This document shows positions 44,913 through 51,407 of a DNA stretch of 64,000 nt, piece after piece; position 1 is the first letter of the stretch, and every line of letters begins with the position of its first letter. The translations under genes and the position numbers were made by a program. The DNA is from Pseudomonadota bacterium (GTDB lineage Bacteria; Desulfobacterota; Desulfovibrionia; Desulfovibrionales; Desulfovibrionaceae). The stretch is from contig JAHIUW010000036.1 of assembly GCA_018816865.1 (NCBI GenBank), positions 124,001-188,000 on the forward strand. Direction: 5' to 3'. The notes below the pieces were generated by a model. That model ran no database searches. It saw only the letters and a list, made by a program, of their open reading frames with translations, and was not told the DNA's origin.

Positions 44913-47900
44913 CTAGATTTGCAGCGGACGCGGGGCCTGGGACTTGTGCGGGAGATGAACCCGACATTCCAGGTCCGGGGCGATCTGGGACGCACTGTTG
45001 GCCTGGATAAACGAATTCAGATTCCTGCTGATCAGATCCAGCTGTTTGGGACTGGTCACGCAGAAGACCTCTCCCCAGTTGGTTCCGTACAGCAGGACCA
45101 CGTCACGGATGTCCTTGACATCGCGATCCGTGGCGAAGTTGATCACCACCAGCGCCCGCACCACCTCCTCATCCCGCAGGGTCTCTTCGATCTCGGCTTC
45201 GAAGACCTGCTTGGGCGCGAAGAATTCTGCCAGTTCATCAAACAGAACGCGCAGGTCAGGGGTGGAGATGGGTGCCTGCAGGTTCGTGCCCTGGAACTGC
45301 ATCCCTCCCTCGTACAGCTGGTTGGCCACCAGCCAGGCCAACAACTCCACAGGATTCTTGGTGCGGTGCAGATCCTCGAAGGGGACCTTCTTGCCCTTGC
45401 CAGCCACGGGTTCGCCCTTGGCCGCCCACAACCTGGGGGTCCCGGACTGCCCCTGGCACTCGATTTCCAGCGACTGGAAAAGCCGCCGGGGCGAATCCAT
45501 GAACGGGATGTGCAGAATCTTGCCGGGCTTTTTGTCGAAATGCCCGAAGATCTTGCGCCCCAACTTGGTCAGGTCCTGATCGCTGATCCGGACCTCCGTA
45601 TCCAGTCCATCCGCGCCCTTGCTGATCTGCTCGTAGGTCCTGAACATATACCGGGCCACCATCTGGCCCAACTCGTTCAGGTCCGCAAAGGTTTCCGCAT
45701 TCCAGGCCCCGGCCTTGCCCTCCTTGGGCATACTGCTACGCTCATTCACGCAGTAGGGATAAAAATACTCCAGCCAGCTGGTGCCGAGCATCTCCGTCAG
45801 CCGCCCCGTGGTCCTGCCCAGGGAGGAGAATCCCGTCTTCTGCTCAAAGGCCATGCGCATCAGTTCCCGGGCTTCTTTGTTGCCGGTTTCCTGGTAGTGC
45901 CCCTCCACCTCGCTGAACAAGACGGCGTAGGGGTCGACACTCCAGAAATCGTACCGCCCGGCCTGGATGTTGCGATTCAGGCGGTTGCACAGCAACACGT
46001 CGGCGCTGCCGCCCGCAATGTACTTGTCCAGCAGGGCAAATTTCATGATGGACTTGAAGGGGCTCTTCAAGGCCTTGACGATCTGCCACAGGGAGGCCCC
46101 GAAGAATTCATCCCGCGGGACCCGGCTCATGGCTCCCAGGTCCACAACGTCGTCCAGGGGCAGGGTCTTGGCCGAGGCAATGCGGGCCAGCCCCTTGGCG
46201 TAGGCCGCGTCGCCGATGTCGGGCGCCAAGAGCCACCAGGCCAGCTTCTTGCCCCCCAGCAGCACTGCCGTGCGGTAGAACTCCTCCTTGAGCAGCAGGG
46301 CCTGGCTGGACCCGGCACTCTCCTTGTCGCTGAATCCAAAATTGTTCTCACGCACCTTGGCCATGTCCATGACGAAGAAATGCAGTTCCAGACCGTATTC
46401 ACTGTCGACCCAGCGTTCGATGGCCGCGAGCTTGTCCTTGAATCCCCGGACCTCATCCGGGTCCACCCCGGTCTCGTCAAAGCAGACCCACATGTCGATG
46501 TCCGAATTGCGGGTCTGGGCGATGGTGCCCACGCTGCCGATGGAATAGAAGGCCTCCACGCGGATGGCTGGCGCGGGCTGTTCGTCCGGAGAGGGGGCGT
46601 GATAGCTGCCAACGAAATGCTCTTCAAGATTTTTCAGGACCGAGTAGCCCGGAGTCCAGCCCTGGATGATGCACGCCGCTGCGGGCTTGGACTGGCCTGC
46701 GTCGCGGATGACACCAGCCTGCACCAATCCCGGCAGCATGGACAGAACCCCTGCGGCCTCGTCCCCAAGCTTGCCGGCGCACCAGTCCAAACGGCGGCGG
46801 TTGGCGGCCAGGGCCAGCCGCCTGTGCCTGGCCAAATCCCGTTCTTCCAGCCAGTCCCGTACGATCCCAAGCATGGTCACCTGGGCCTCGTCGCCGGCCA
46901 GCACGCCCTCCACGGCAACGGGTCGCTCCTTGGCCGTCACGCCGACGGCCAGGGCCTGGGCCGAGCGTTCGGCCTCCAGCAGCAGGCCCGGTTCGTCGCT
47001 CAACAGGCCGGTCAGGGCACAGGCCCGATACACGCAGCCCCGGGCCACGGCGTTCATGATCCGCGAGTCTGAGGCGAACAGATGCCGGAACAGACAGTCC
47101 GTGAACTCCACACCGTCAAAGTCCGCCCGCTCCAGTATGGCATAGGAATAATCCACCCGCGTGAACAGACAGGAGCGCACCGTGGCCCCCTCCAGACGCG
47201 CGCCCCACAGCGACGCGTCCTCAAAACGACAGCCTTCCAATGTCAAGCCAGTGGTCGAGATCCCGTCCAAAGAGGTCATGGTCAGGGAACAACGCACCAG
47301 ACGCACCCCGTCCCAGGCGCAATCCGAGAACCGGCAGCCCGAAAAATCGCACTCCTCAAACAGCGTATCCTTCAACCGCGAGGCCGACAGGTCCACCCCG
47401 GCGAGACGGCACTTCACGAAGCGAGCGCCCTCCAACCTGGACTGGCGCAGGTCCAGCGCGCCCAGGGTGCAACCCGAAAATACCGTCCTGCCAAGGTCCT
47501 TGCCCCTGGCTTCGGCGTCCTTGATGATCTTGCCCTGGGCATGGGCTCCGGGTCCAAGGGTGTCCAGAAAGGCCTGTCCCGCCGAAAAACCCGCCGTGGA
47601 ATCGCCACCGATGATCTTCTTGACCTTGCCCAACAGGGACTGCGGCTGGTCGGGGGCCGTGCGGTAGGGGGCCGGTTCCTGCGGCGTGAACAGGGGCCGA
47701 TGCAGCGCCCGCTTGCGGCCTTTGACATGCCCGGCCATGGCCACCGCCAAGGCCCCTCCCACAAGCTTCAGAGCCTCTTGCAGCCAGGTCGGTTCCAGCC
47801 GCGCCAGGCAGAGCAGCAGGGCTGCCAGGACCTCGGACCGAGCCTGTGCAGGCAATGCCTTGGAGAAACGGGCGAATTCCTGCGCTGGCAGCATCAGGGC

Positions 47901-48806
47901 CACGCCCAGCAACCCGGCCCGGATCGCGGGAGTGGCGGCGTAGATCATGGCCAGCACCTTGGCAGCCTGGGGCGAACCGAGCCGCACCAAGGCCCGAGCC
48001 GCAGCGAGCCTGACCTGGGGGTCCTTGTGTTTCAGGAACAGCAACGCTGCCTTGACGGTGCGGCCCCCAGGATCGCTCCAGGACGGCTCCACCAGATCGA
48101 AGATGGCGGGCAGATTCTCGGGCCCCGCGAACTTCAACAGGCGCAGGATATTGCCCGTCAACGGGGGCCAGTCCAGGCGCGAAGCCGTATCCGCCATGTA
48201 GCGGGCCTGCTCGGCATCCAGATCCAGGCAGAGCAATTCCTGCAACCAGAACCCGAACCGTCCGTGCAGCATCTCGCGCTGCACGGCAAAAGCCGGGCGT
48301 TCGCCCCCCTGCGCCAGACCGTCCAGGAACAGCAACGCTTCCTCGGGGTCATCGCCTTGCAGTTCGTGCACCTTCTCCGTGGCCCAAGCCAGATCCTGAG
48401 GCCGGACGGCACGGGGGGTGGCCAGAAAACGGTTGACCACCGCCAGCTGTCGATGGGCGGGCAACCTCTCCTGCGCCAGACGCAGGCTCTCTGCCGTCAG
48501 CTTGTTGGAACCGACAAACGAGGCACACAAGATCTCACCCAGGGCACCCTGTCCGGCCAGTTCCGAAAACAGCTTGCGGACGATGGCGTTGTCTCCGGAC
48601 GAGGCCACCAGCTCAGCCATGAGGTAACACAGTCGCGAACCCAATCGGGCCGACTCCGGGGTGCCGTCTTCCAACTCATGGCCAAAGGACAGGGCCTGCT
48701 CCACGATCTCGCCCAGCACACCAAAGGCATCCGTGGGCAGATGCATGGCGCGCCACAGCTGGTCCAGGACCTGCGTCAGAGGGGAGGCGGAAGAAGGTTT
48801 GACCAC
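44913..48806 (-). CDS. HEAT-like / pentapeptide-repeat / class I adenylate cyclase fusion protein
   Basis: A very large (about 1297-residue) soluble protein. Residues 1 to about 400 are helical with HEAT-like repeats (FLKHKDPQVRLAAARALVRLGS). Residues about 443-600 form pentapeptide repeats (LDLRQSRLEGARFVKCRLAG and similar). The C-terminal half matches CyaA: YSIGSVGTIAQTRNSDIDMW with nucleotidyl-transferase Gly-Ser and Asp-x-Asp (about residues 753-772), then LELHFFVMD and LLLKEEFYRTAVLLGGKKLAWW as in the E. coli enzyme. It should make cAMP, with the repeats as sensing or interaction parts. GTG 48806 has AAGGA 8 bases upstream; an in-frame GTG at 48848 lacks one. Confidence 0.85.
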   Translation of the reverse strand: MVKPSSASPLTQVLDQLWRAMHLPTDAFGVLGEIVEQALSFGHELEDGTPESARLGSRLCYLMAELVASSGDNAIVRKLFSELAGQGALGEILCASFVGSNKLTAESLRLAQERLPAHRQLAVVNRFLATPRAVRPQDLAWATEKVHELQGDDPEEALLFLDGLAQGGERPAFAVQREMLHGRFGFWLQELLCLDLDAEQARYMADTASRLDWPPLTGNILRLLKFAGPENLPAIFDLVEPSWSDPGGRTVKAALLFLKHKDPQVRLAAARALVRLGSPQAAKVLAMIYAATPAIRAGLLGVALMLPAQEFARFSKALPAQARSEVLAALLLCLARLEPTWLQEALKLVGGALAVAMAGHVKGRKRALHRPLFTPQEPAPYRTAPDQPQSLLGKVKKIIGGDSTAGFSAGQAFLDTLGPGAHAQGKIIKDAEARGKDLGRTVFSGCTLGALDLRQSRLEGARFVKCRLAGVDLSASRLKDTLFEECDFSGCRFSDCAWDGVRLVRCSLTMTSLDGISTTGLTLEGCRFEDASLWGARLEGATVRSCLFTRVDYSYAILERADFDGVEFTDCLFRHLFASDSRIMNAVARGCVYRACALTGLLSDEPGLLLEAERSAQALAVGVTAKERPVAVEGVLAGDEAQVTMLGIVRDWLEERDLARHRRLALAANRRRLDWCAGKLGDEAAGVLSMLPGLVQAGVIRDAGQSKPAAACIIQGWTPGYSVLKNLEEHFVGSYHAPSPDEQPAPAIRVEAFYSIGSVGTIAQTRNSDIDMWVCFDETGVDPDEVRGFKDKLAAIERWVDSEYGLELHFFVMDMAKVRENNFGFSDKESAGSSQALLLKEEFYRTAVLLGGKKLAWWLLAPDIGDAAYAKGLARIASAKTLPLDDVVDLGAMSRVPRDEFFGASLWQIVKALKSPFKSIMKFALLDKYIAGGSADVLLCNRLNRNIQAGRYDFWSVDPYAVLFSEVEGHYQETGNKEARELMRMAFEQKTGFSSLGRTTGRLTEMLGTSWLEYFYPYCVNERSSMPKEGKAGAWNAETFADLNELGQMVARYMFRTYEQISKGADGLDTEVRISDQDLTKLGRKIFGHFDKKPGKILHIPFMDSPRRLFQSLEIECQGQSGTPRLWAAKGEPVAGKGKKVPFEDLHRTKNPVELLAWLVANQLYEGGMQFQGTNLQAPISTPDLRVLFDELAEFFAPKQVFEAEIEETLRDEEVVRALVVINFATDRDVKDIRDVVLLYGTNWGEVFCVTSPKQLDLISRNLNSFIQANSASQIAPDLECRVHLPHKSQAPRPLQI

Positions 48807-48866
48807 GGGCGGATTCCTTGCAGCGGTTTGGGGAGGGCAGGTGCGCACGGTGCGGGGCGACTGCCG

Positions 48867-50210
48867 CTAGGCACCGTCACCCACGGCCTCGGCGTAGTAA
48901 TTGATCGTGCGGCTCGGACTCAAATAGGAGTAAACATCGCGGGGCAGTTCCTCGGGGCGGAAGGTCTCGGTGACGTTCAACTCCTCTTCCAGCACCAGAT
49001 CCACCAGCAACGCCTCATCCTTGGGGATTTCCGGGTGGTACATGAGCACCGTGGGCCGGGAGGCCTGCTCCGGATTGACGGCCGTGACCATCCCGAACTG
49101 GCCATTGGACAGCTTGACCACGGTGCCCGGCGGGTAGACGCCCATGTTGCGGATGAAGATGGCCAGAATCCTGGAGTCCATCTTGCTGCGCATGCTGGCG
49201 TACAGGGTCTTCAGGGCCTGGTGCGGCGTGGACTGGGTCTCGGACCGGTAATCGTTGATCAAATTGTCGTAGCGGTTGACCACGGTCACCACCCGCGCCA
49301 GCGGAGAAATGGCCTCGCCCTTCAGACCCTTGGGATAGCCGGACCCATCCAGCAATTCATGATGCTGCAACACGGCCTGGGTCGCCAGCTTGGGGAACCG
49401 GGCAAACCCGTTCACCAGCCGCGCCCCGATCAAAGGATGTTCCTTGATGTACTTCTCGGCGGCCCTGGCCAGGGTGGTCGCCCCCATACCGCCCACGGCC
49501 TGCATGGGCACACGGCCCTTGCCGATGTCGTGGAACATGGCCCCCAGACCCAGGGCATGCATGACCTCGCTCTTGAGGCCCAGTGCCTTGCCCACCATCA
49601 TCGCGAGCACGGTCACGTTCAGGGCGTGGTAATGCTTGGCCTCTTCGCTGGGCTTGGAACTCATGAGATTGATCATGGTGTCGCGCTCGGACAGGAAGGT
49701 CTCCACCAGGGTCTGCACGAGGCTGGAGGCCTCCTCGGCCGCCTCATCGGAATGGCCCGAGGCCCGGCGCAGGATGGTGACCACGCTGCTCATGGTCGTG
49801 TCGTAGCGTTTTTCCACCTTGCGGAAGCGCTGACGGCGCTCCTTGTTGCGTTCGATGGTCTCGCGTTTGAGCCCCAGCAACTGCACAGAGACCGGAGTCT
49901 TCTGCCCCGTCTTGGCCTCTGGGGACCGACCCTTGGACACATTGCCAGAGCCACCGGCTGCCGCATCCGCGTTGCTGGTAGGCGCACCGCCCGAACGTTT
50001 GTTCCTGGGCGGCAAGGGCATGCGGTCCGATTTTTCCAGGACGCAGATCACGTGCTCCAGCCCCAGGCCCTGCACGGTCTTGAGCTGCTTCTCGGTCTTG
50101 ATCTTGAATTCGGACTTGCGAAACGGATTCTGCCCGTCTTCAAGCTCAAGGCGTATGAACAGCCCGATCACGAGCTGCTCCACGTGGATGGGATATTCCG
50201 TCTGCTCCAT
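48867..50210 (-). CDS. HD-GYP domain c-di-GMP phosphodiesterase with DUF3391-like N-terminus
   Basis: A 447-residue protein. Residues 1-60 resemble the DUF3391 sensor that precedes many HD-GYP domains (HVEQLVIGLFIRLELEDGQNPF). A Gly/Ser/Pro-rich linker covers about residues 70-100. The HD-GYP domain has MFHDIGKGRVP (about residue 226) and HHELLDGSGYPKGLKG (about residue 285), both complete, so hydrolysis of c-di-GMP is expected. It lies upstream of the adenylate cyclase-like gene with an 18- to 60-base gap depending on that start. Confidence 0.93.
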   Translation of the reverse strand: MEQTEYPIHVEQLVIGLFIRLELEDGQNPFRKSEFKIKTEKQLKTVQGLGLEHVICVLEKSDRMPLPPRNKRSGGAPTSNADAAAGGSGNVSKGRSPEAKTGQKTPVSVQLLGLKRETIERNKERRQRFRKVEKRYDTTMSSVVTILRRASGHSDEAAEEASSLVQTLVETFLSERDTMINLMSSKPSEEAKHYHALNVTVLAMMVGKALGLKSEVMHALGLGAMFHDIGKGRVPMQAVGGMGATTLARAAEKYIKEHPLIGARLVNGFARFPKLATQAVLQHHELLDGSGYPKGLKGEAISPLARVVTVVNRYDNLINDYRSETQSTPHQALKTLYASMRSKMDSRILAIFIRNMGVYPPGTVVKLSNGQFGMVTAVNPEQASRPTVLMYHPEIPKDEALLVDLVLEEELNVTETFRPEELPRDVYSYLSPSRTINYYAEAVGDGA

Positions 50211-50330: not shown

Positions 50331-50726
50331 TCAGGCCGCGTCCCGGCCATTGGCCGCTTGCTCTGCGACCCCGCCTGAGGCCCGGCCTGAGGCCTGTTCA
50401 TAGGTCTGACCCCACTCGCACATCGTACGCATCACCGGCATCACGCTGTTGCCCAGTTCGGTCAGGGAGTATTCCACCTTGGGCGGCACCTGGGGGTAGA
50501 CCTCGCGATGCACCAGCCCGTCGGCCTCCAGTTCCCTGAGTTGCTGGGTGAGCATTTTCTGGGTGATGTTGGGCATAGCCTTCTTGAGTTCCCCGAAACG
50601 CCGGGTCCCATCCGTGAACAGATACCACAGGATGATCGGCTTCCACTTGCCGCCGATGACCTGCAGCGTGAGTTCCACCGTGCAGTAGTATTCCTTGTCG
50701 CCGCAGCGTTTGAGTCCGCATCCCAT
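50331..50726 (-). CDS. HxlR family transcription regulator
   Basis: A 131-residue winged-helix protein with the HxlR pattern: [58 protein letters not shown] and a tail ending in a Gln/Ala-rich stretch. Cys residues near the N-terminus ([14 protein letters not shown]) could sense redox or electrophile stress, as in YodB/HypR relatives. AAGGAG lies 8 bases before ATG 50726. It is divergent from the nitroreductase gene and probably controls it through the intergenic palindrome. Confidence 0.9.
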
Positions 50727-50786
50727 CTGCACTTCTCCTTTGGCCCCTGAAGGGGTATTGTTGGGCGGCAGGGCCCACGGGCCCAT

Positions 50787-50806
50787 TAGTACCCCGAAGG
50801 TAACTA
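50787..50806 (+). promoter_or_regulatory. Candidate HxlR operator
   Basis: TAGTACC (50787-50793) and GGTAACTA (50799-50806) form an imperfect palindrome of the GTAC/GGTA type in the divergent region. HxlR-type regulators commonly bind such dyads between their own gene and the target. Position supports autoregulation plus nitroreductase control, but no experiment is implied. Confidence 0.4.
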
Positions 50807-50897
50807 CATGATCAAAAGGTGCCTACTTGCGATTCTATCTGTATGGCGTACAACAAACCCCATCGGACAGGCAACCCAAACACACGGGAGAACCCAA

Positions 50898-51407
50898 ATG
50901 GATATCCTTGAAGCCATTCATACCCGTCGCAGCATCCGCAAATTCACGGACCAGCCCGTCGATAAGGAGCTTGTGACCCAGCTGCTGCAGGCGGCCATGG
51001 CCGCCCCCAGCGCGGGCAACGCCCAGCCCTGGCACTTCGTGGTCATCGAGGACCGCCCGACCCTGGACAGGATCCCCGAGTTCCACCCATACGCCGCCAT
51101 GTGCCGTCAGGCCCCCCTGGCCATCCTGGTCTGCGGCGATCCGACCCTGGAAAAATACCCCGGATTCTGGGTCCAGGACTGCTCCGCCGCGGTGCAGAAC
51201 CTGCTGCTTGCCGCCCGCGGCCTGGGGCTTGGTGCCGTCTGGACGGGCATCCATCCCGATCAGCCCCGCAGCACAGGCATGCGCAACCTGCTGAACCTGC
51301 CCGAGCATATCCAGCCCCTGGCTCTGATCCCCGTTGGCCACCCGGACCAGCCCTCTGCCGCGGTTGACCGCTTCCAACCCACACGCATCCACCACGACCG
51401 CTGGTAA
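50898..51407 (+). CDS. Nitroreductase family FMN protein
   Basis: A 169-residue FMN-dependent oxidoreductase. The FMN-binding TRRSIRKFTDQPVDKE and PSAGNAQPWHFVVIED motifs are clear at residues 9-55, and the C-terminal AARGLGLGAVWTGI is the second FMN contact region. Targets in this family include nitroaromatics and quinones. The start ATG 50898 follows CGGGAG. It heads a three-gene plus-strand redox group (nitroreductase, ABM-fold protein, OYE-like protein). Confidence 0.93.
   Translation: MDILEAIHTRRSIRKFTDQPVDKELVTQLLQAAMAAPSAGNAQPWHFVVIEDRPTLDRIPEFHPYAAMCRQAPLAILVCGDPTLEKYPGFWVQDCSAAVQNLLLAARGLGLGAVWTGIHPDQPRSTGMRNLLNLPEHIQPLALIPVGHPDQPSAAVDRFQPTRIHHDRW

Follow-up and report, generated by a model that had tools for sequence, protein, structure and literature searches.

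In the window, by which we mean the whole 64,000-nucleotide stretch of DNA analysed here, a gene on the minus strand encodes a protein composed of a HEAT-type helical solenoid, a pentapeptide-repeat beta-helix and a complete class I adenylate cyclase of ~640 amino acids, in this order from the N- to the C-terminus. The features of the locus are listed below. Residues are numbered according to a 1311-residue reading of the frame (P0001), from which 14 is subtracted to obtain positions in the 1297-residue protein.

48867 to 50210, minus strand: gene for an HD-GYP protein (DUF3391 and HD_5), directly upstream of the cyclase gene and 60 nucleotides before its GTG
44913 to 48806, minus strand: coding sequence of the HEAT-pentapeptide-class I adenylate cyclase, 1297 amino acids, GTG start
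47715 to 48782, minus strand: HEAT-type alpha-solenoid, residues 23-378 (AlphaFold2, Pfam HEAT_2 and family profile)
47001 to 47549, minus strand: pentapeptide-repeat beta-helix of about nine coils, residues 434-616 (Pfam, AlphaFold2 and Foldseek)
46233 to 46829, minus strand: class I adenylate cyclase N-terminal (nucleotidyltransferase-type) domain PF12633, residues 674-872 (Pfam)
46488 to 46538, minus strand: catalytic GSVG...SDIDMW motif, residues 771-787 (alignment)
45060 to 46151, minus strand: Adenylate_cycl domain PF01295, residues 900-1263, including D972

The open frame of the cyclase runs from its stop end at 44913 to a first GTG at 48848 (1311 codons). The GTG at 48806, already chosen in the initial annotation, is likely the better start, because AAGGAA (48814-48819) lies 7 nucleotides upstream of it and the closest orthologue, which comes from the same genus (L041), begins at the matching residue. 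Genes for an HxlR-type regulator and a nitroreductase adjoin the HD-GYP/cyclase pair in divergent orientation (50331-51407). No Rfam elements were found near the cyclase locus. A role in anti-phage defence was also considered and rejected; the PADLOC matches reflected only generic HEAT and HD-domain (Cas3) similarity.

Pfam, the PDB profile search and AlphaFold2 (AF2) agreed on the architecture of the cyclase protein. The AF2 models had a pLDDT of about 87-89 and pTM values of 0.90 and 0.88; for the model covering residues 112-1311, these values were 86.7 and 0.88. With the exception of HEAT_2, the Pfam domain matches are far beyond chance. These analyses bore out the initial annotation in placing HEAT-like and pentapeptide modules ahead of a class I cyclase, and in assigning the C-terminal part to that family. 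The segment preceding the catalytic part was overestimated there at ~750 residues, a figure that seems to take the GSVGT motif at 771 as its endpoint; its actual length is about 655 residues, with the class I domain starting near residue 670.

For the first module, the Pfam HEAT_2 match at residues 264-306 scored 29.2 bits against a cut-off of 27.7 and was marginal by sequence. AF2 predicted alpha-solenoid helices over residues 23-378, mostly with pLDDT >85, and a family profile built from 65 relatives matched the alphaRep designed HEAT-like repeats in the PDB (E 2.8e-11). Because HEAT_2 barely exceeded its cut-off, the solenoid assignment depends on the AF2 model together with the family profile, and by these residues 23-378 show the repeated antiparallel helix pairs and the HEAT profile of a HEAT-repeat alpha-solenoid. 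Residues near 380-420, between the solenoid and the beta-helix, were poorly defined in the model.

The second module was detected by Pfam Pentapeptide_4 from residue 452 (69.2 bits, cut-off 38) and modelled as a regular beta-helix over residues 434-616 with a pLDDT of 93-98, followed by a helix leading into the cyclase. The same 65-relative profile matched pentapeptide structures in the PDB (E 1e-26), and Foldseek placed the beta-helix with NP275-NP276 (1.6 A), Qnr, AlbG, MfpA and HetL. The module has the characteristics of a pentapeptide-repeat domain, namely a match to PF13599/PF00805 and a beta-helix with coils of ~20 residues. Comparison of the window protein with its same-genus orthologue gave dN/dS ratios of ~0.13 for the solenoid, 0.16 for the beta-helix and 0.10 for the catalytic part, which are rough, as dS was near or above 1. 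Every domain of the protein is under purifying selection.

Both Pfam domains of class I cyclases exceeded their curated cut-offs of 27, with 153.6 bits (E 8.9e-45) for PF12633 (Adenyl_cycl_N) and 117.1 bits (E 1.1e-33) for PF01295, the latter covering profile positions 1-358 of 601. Escherichia coli CyaA aligned to residues 704-1120 with 26% identity over 421 residues (E 7.5e-34). In an alignment of 127 catalytic domains, S772, S782, D783, D785, W787 and D972 correspond to E. coli S103, S113, D114, D116, W118 and D300, all of them identical, so that the protein carries both the GS...SDxDxW motif of class I cyclases and the Asp at the position of E. coli D300. We take these E. coli residues to be among those reported to be needed for activity. 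Across these domains, the six residues were kept in 124 to 127 sequences, D972 being invariant (127/127). The DxD site is conserved and probably catalytic. E821, kept in 114 of the 127 domains, is a candidate third carboxylate, judging from its place in a strand. The core presumably adopts the nucleotidyltransferase (Pol-beta-type) fold established for the family; the Pol-beta Pfam model PF18765 matched with an E of 0.009, below its cut-off. A structure search with the long AF2 model returned mainly beta-helices among the matches listed, and none of the matches listed from the PDB profile search was an experimental structure of the class I core.

We surveyed homologues for the same domain order. 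A single-sequence scan of genome contigs recovered zero relatives; an alignment-based scan did recover them. Of 199 genomes sampled from the same family, 90 had PF01295, nearly always within an open frame of about 1300 codons, and about half had no class I cyclase. Many families in a wider sample of the phylum had PF01295 frames near 640 codons. Pentapeptide repeats and both cyclase domains were found in all 36 full-length proteins scanned, including that of the window, and HEAT_2 reached the threshold (E 0.01) in six of them. The long form occurred in Desulfovibrionales (Solidesulfovibrio, Pseudodesulfovibrio, Humidesulfovibrio, Desulfocurvus, Halodesulfovibrio and others) and in Desulfobacterales (Desulfobacterium, Desulfotignum, Desulfamplus and others), and bare class I cyclases of ~640 amino acids were sampled from Nitrospinota, Nitrospirota, Tectomicrobia and other Desulfobacterota. 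The armed cyclase is the standard form in Desulfovibrionales and Desulfobacterales.

The genome that contains the window encodes a second, diverged cyclase (G000:C2), whose catalytic part is 39% identical to that of the window protein; these two class I cyclases are the only places in the genome where the full arm occurs. Four strong matches to class III cyclases (PF00211) and 15 matches to cNMP-binding domains were also present; because of these counts, cyclic-nucleotide signalling in this genome looks elaborate. Several relatives deviate from the common pattern. A long-branch relative in genome G024 (L070, 4123-8094, minus strand), which has at least four other or related cyclase copies, kept the arm and lost the GS...SDxDxW motif; it is apparently a pseudo-cyclase. 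As the arm was retained in this protein after loss of the active-site motif, it may have a further, non-catalytic function. The second copy in L060 carries D783N. In L078-L084, which belong to families f27, f28 and f93 of the same phylum, class I cyclases without the arm have ~285 extra C-terminal residues, a second and different extension of the same core; no Pfam match was found in it.

In a tree of the 127 catalytic domains, all N-extended proteins formed a clade together with the small C-extended group (SH-aLRT 98), and a Desulfovibrionales-dominated group (82 rows) and a Desulfobacterales-type group (15 rows) were each supported at 100. Most of the apparently 'short' members within the N-extended clades were truncated at the end of a contig, and after removal of the truncated and long-branch rows, several apparent changes were reduced to one. 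In the tree pruned in this way (quick search, SH-aLRT only), the full-length N-extended rows lay on one side of a branch supported at 95, with the bare and C-extended forms on the other. A profile of the Desulfovibrionales solenoid matched 9 of 12 Desulfobacterales-type N-termini ahead of unrelated frames (E 2e-30 to 2e-5). Given this branch and the profile matches across both groups, one origin of the arm in Desulfovibrionales/Desulfobacterales is the simplest reading.

The window cyclase belongs to a subclade of 21 rows (SH-aLRT 99). All 17 members for which upstream DNA was available had an HD-GYP homologue immediately upstream in the same orientation; the remaining four were cut by contig ends. 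No same-strand upstream HD-GYP homologue was found outside this subclade among the compared loci, and most N-extended cyclases, including the second copy in the same genome, have no adjoining HD-GYP gene. Other neighbours conserved across loci were set aside as synteny of close relatives or antisense frames, and the HD-GYP gene alone stood out as an upstream partner on the same strand. The pairing of the two genes, conserved in the subclade of the window cyclase, is newly reported here; such a pair indicates co-regulation at most, not contact. Since most N-extended cyclases have no HD-GYP neighbour, an HD-GYP protein cannot be what the arm binds in general. Different armed copies probably have different partners, as neither the second copy nor most relatives adjoin an HD-GYP gene.

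The upstream protein scored 90.4 bits for HD_5 (cut-off 27.2) and contains the HD and HHExxDGxGYP motifs that define HD-GYP proteins; DUF3391 is its only other Pfam domain. The position of the metal ligand D305 of PmGH is occupied by Asn in this protein and in most of the subclade partners, with Asp in 3 of 17, and the position of E185 was read by eye as Ala. The complete ligand set of PmGH (E185, H189, H221, D222, H250, H276, H277 and D305) is therefore not present. Among the other HD-GYP proteins encoded in this genome, most have Asp at the D305 position; two, L208 and L211, have Asn as well. Because E185A and D305A lower but do not abolish PmGH activity (PMC4159591), the partner could still be an active phosphodiesterase. 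An HD-GYP domain can also be a non-hydrolysing c-di-GMP receptor, as in DvhD of D. vulgaris (PMC13090378). On this basis, we hypothesize that the partner may be a c-di-GMP receptor or a weak phosphodiesterase.

What is known of class I cyclase regulation comes mostly from enteric bacteria, in which the C-terminal tail takes up the signal. For the window protein, we consider it fairly probable that it functions as a class I cyclase and that its N-terminal arm sets its activity or location, with the HEAT solenoid docking a partner and the arm standing in for the tail. The core would make cAMP from ATP at its Pol-beta-type nucleotidyltransferase site, and the cAMP would act through cyclic-nucleotide-binding proteins, many of which are encoded in the genome. 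The solenoid would dock a partner protein, and the rigid beta-helix, which joins the catalytic core directly, would transmit the signal or position the enzyme. In this way, the ~655-residue arm would replace the C-terminal regulatory tail of enteric CyaA. In the 21-row subclade, the upstream HD-GYP protein would be the likely partner or a co-regulated component, tying cAMP to c-di-GMP. A narrower proposal is that this HD-GYP protein, acting as a receptor or slow phosphodiesterase for c-di-GMP, binds the HEAT-pentapeptide arm directly and adjusts cAMP synthesis to c-di-GMP; this seems rather unlikely to us at present.

The strongest rival explanation is that the arm is purely a localisation scaffold, a tether that mainly positions the enzyme, for example in a membrane complex or at the cell pole, and leaves the catalytic rate unchanged. 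Solenoids of both kinds, HEAT and pentapeptide, are general-purpose scaffolds, this beta-helix is regular and carries no net charge, and the bare 640-residue core stands alone in other lineages, so it probably folds without the arm. Against this, the arm is under purifying selection almost to the degree seen in the core, and the pTM of 0.88 suggests a defined arrangement of arm and core, although both points separate the two readings poorly. We give this explanation some credence, well short of that given to an arm that sets activity or location through a docked partner.

The initial annotation had suggested a protein- or DNA-mimicking sensor in control of cAMP output. As a DNA mimic in the manner of Qnr and MfpA, the pentapeptide helix would bind gyrase or another DNA-binding protein and thereby gate the cyclase. 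The helix does share its fold with Qnr, MfpA and AlbG, but DNA mimicry by MfpA is attributed to a strong negative charge, and the net charge is 0 here, with a family median of -1 (range -12 to +8). As judged by net charge, the helix is not strongly negative as these mimics are. Moreover, neutral designed helices and non-mimics such as HetL matched at least as well in the same searches, making DNA mimicry highly improbable. It is equally hard to credit that the window protein is a pseudo-cyclase in which function resides in the arm and the catalytic domain is kept for another role, because, despite degenerate relatives such as L070 and the second copy in L060, every motif residue is intact here and dN/dS is lower in the catalytic domain than in the other domains of the protein.

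Anyone consulting Pfam can recognize the architecture, and we found no discussion of it in the open-access literature searched. An open-literature search for adenylate cyclase and pentapeptide repeats together with Desulfovibrio returned only a mycobacterial genome comparison. A sulfate-reducer lineage has placed a large solenoid arm on the opposite end of the core, apparently once, and has retained it. Comparison of the bare core with its N-extended and C-extended forms offers a handle on class I switching, and the compact HD-GYP/cyclase gene pair is a place where a physical link between cAMP and c-di-GMP could be tested. To our knowledge, a direct protein link from c-di-GMP to cAMP would be new. 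If true, docking of the HD-GYP protein on the cyclase would constitute a post-translational c-di-GMP-to-cAMP switch, in contrast to Pseudomonas putida, where c-di-GMP cross-regulates cAMP transcriptionally through FleQ (PMC8125075).

Compared with known HD-GYP proteins, the partner shares the HD-GYP motifs with DvhD (PMC13090378) and with the active phosphodiesterase PmGH (PMC4159591). It lacks the PAS and Cache parts of the former and the GAF part of the latter, has Asn at the PmGH D305 position, unlike PmGH, and its gene is paired with a cyclase gene. The beta-helix fold of the arm is shared with Qnr, MfpA, AlbG, HetL and NP275-NP276; pentapeptide-repeat proteins such as Qnr and MfpA are free-standing, whereas the helix of the cyclase is a non-acidic internal module. 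Stand-alone class I cyclases of ~640 amino acids, which have no arm, match the catalytic ~640 residues nearly end to end; their best model, NCBIfam NF006981, was matched over positions 12-626 of 638 (E 1e-111), with a score of 374 that leaves the window protein outside the equivalog (cut-off 802). The C-terminus coincides with that of the bare cyclases, and the protein falls outside the enteric CyaA subfamily (NCBIfam PRK09450 equivalogs) both by its score and by its lack of the enteric C-terminal tail. E. coli CyaA (NP_418250) has both family Pfam domains and the six active-site residues in common with it; as was recognized at the outset, however, the domain order differs, since in CyaA the catalytic part comes first, with no N-terminal arm, and ~215 residues follow the shared core.
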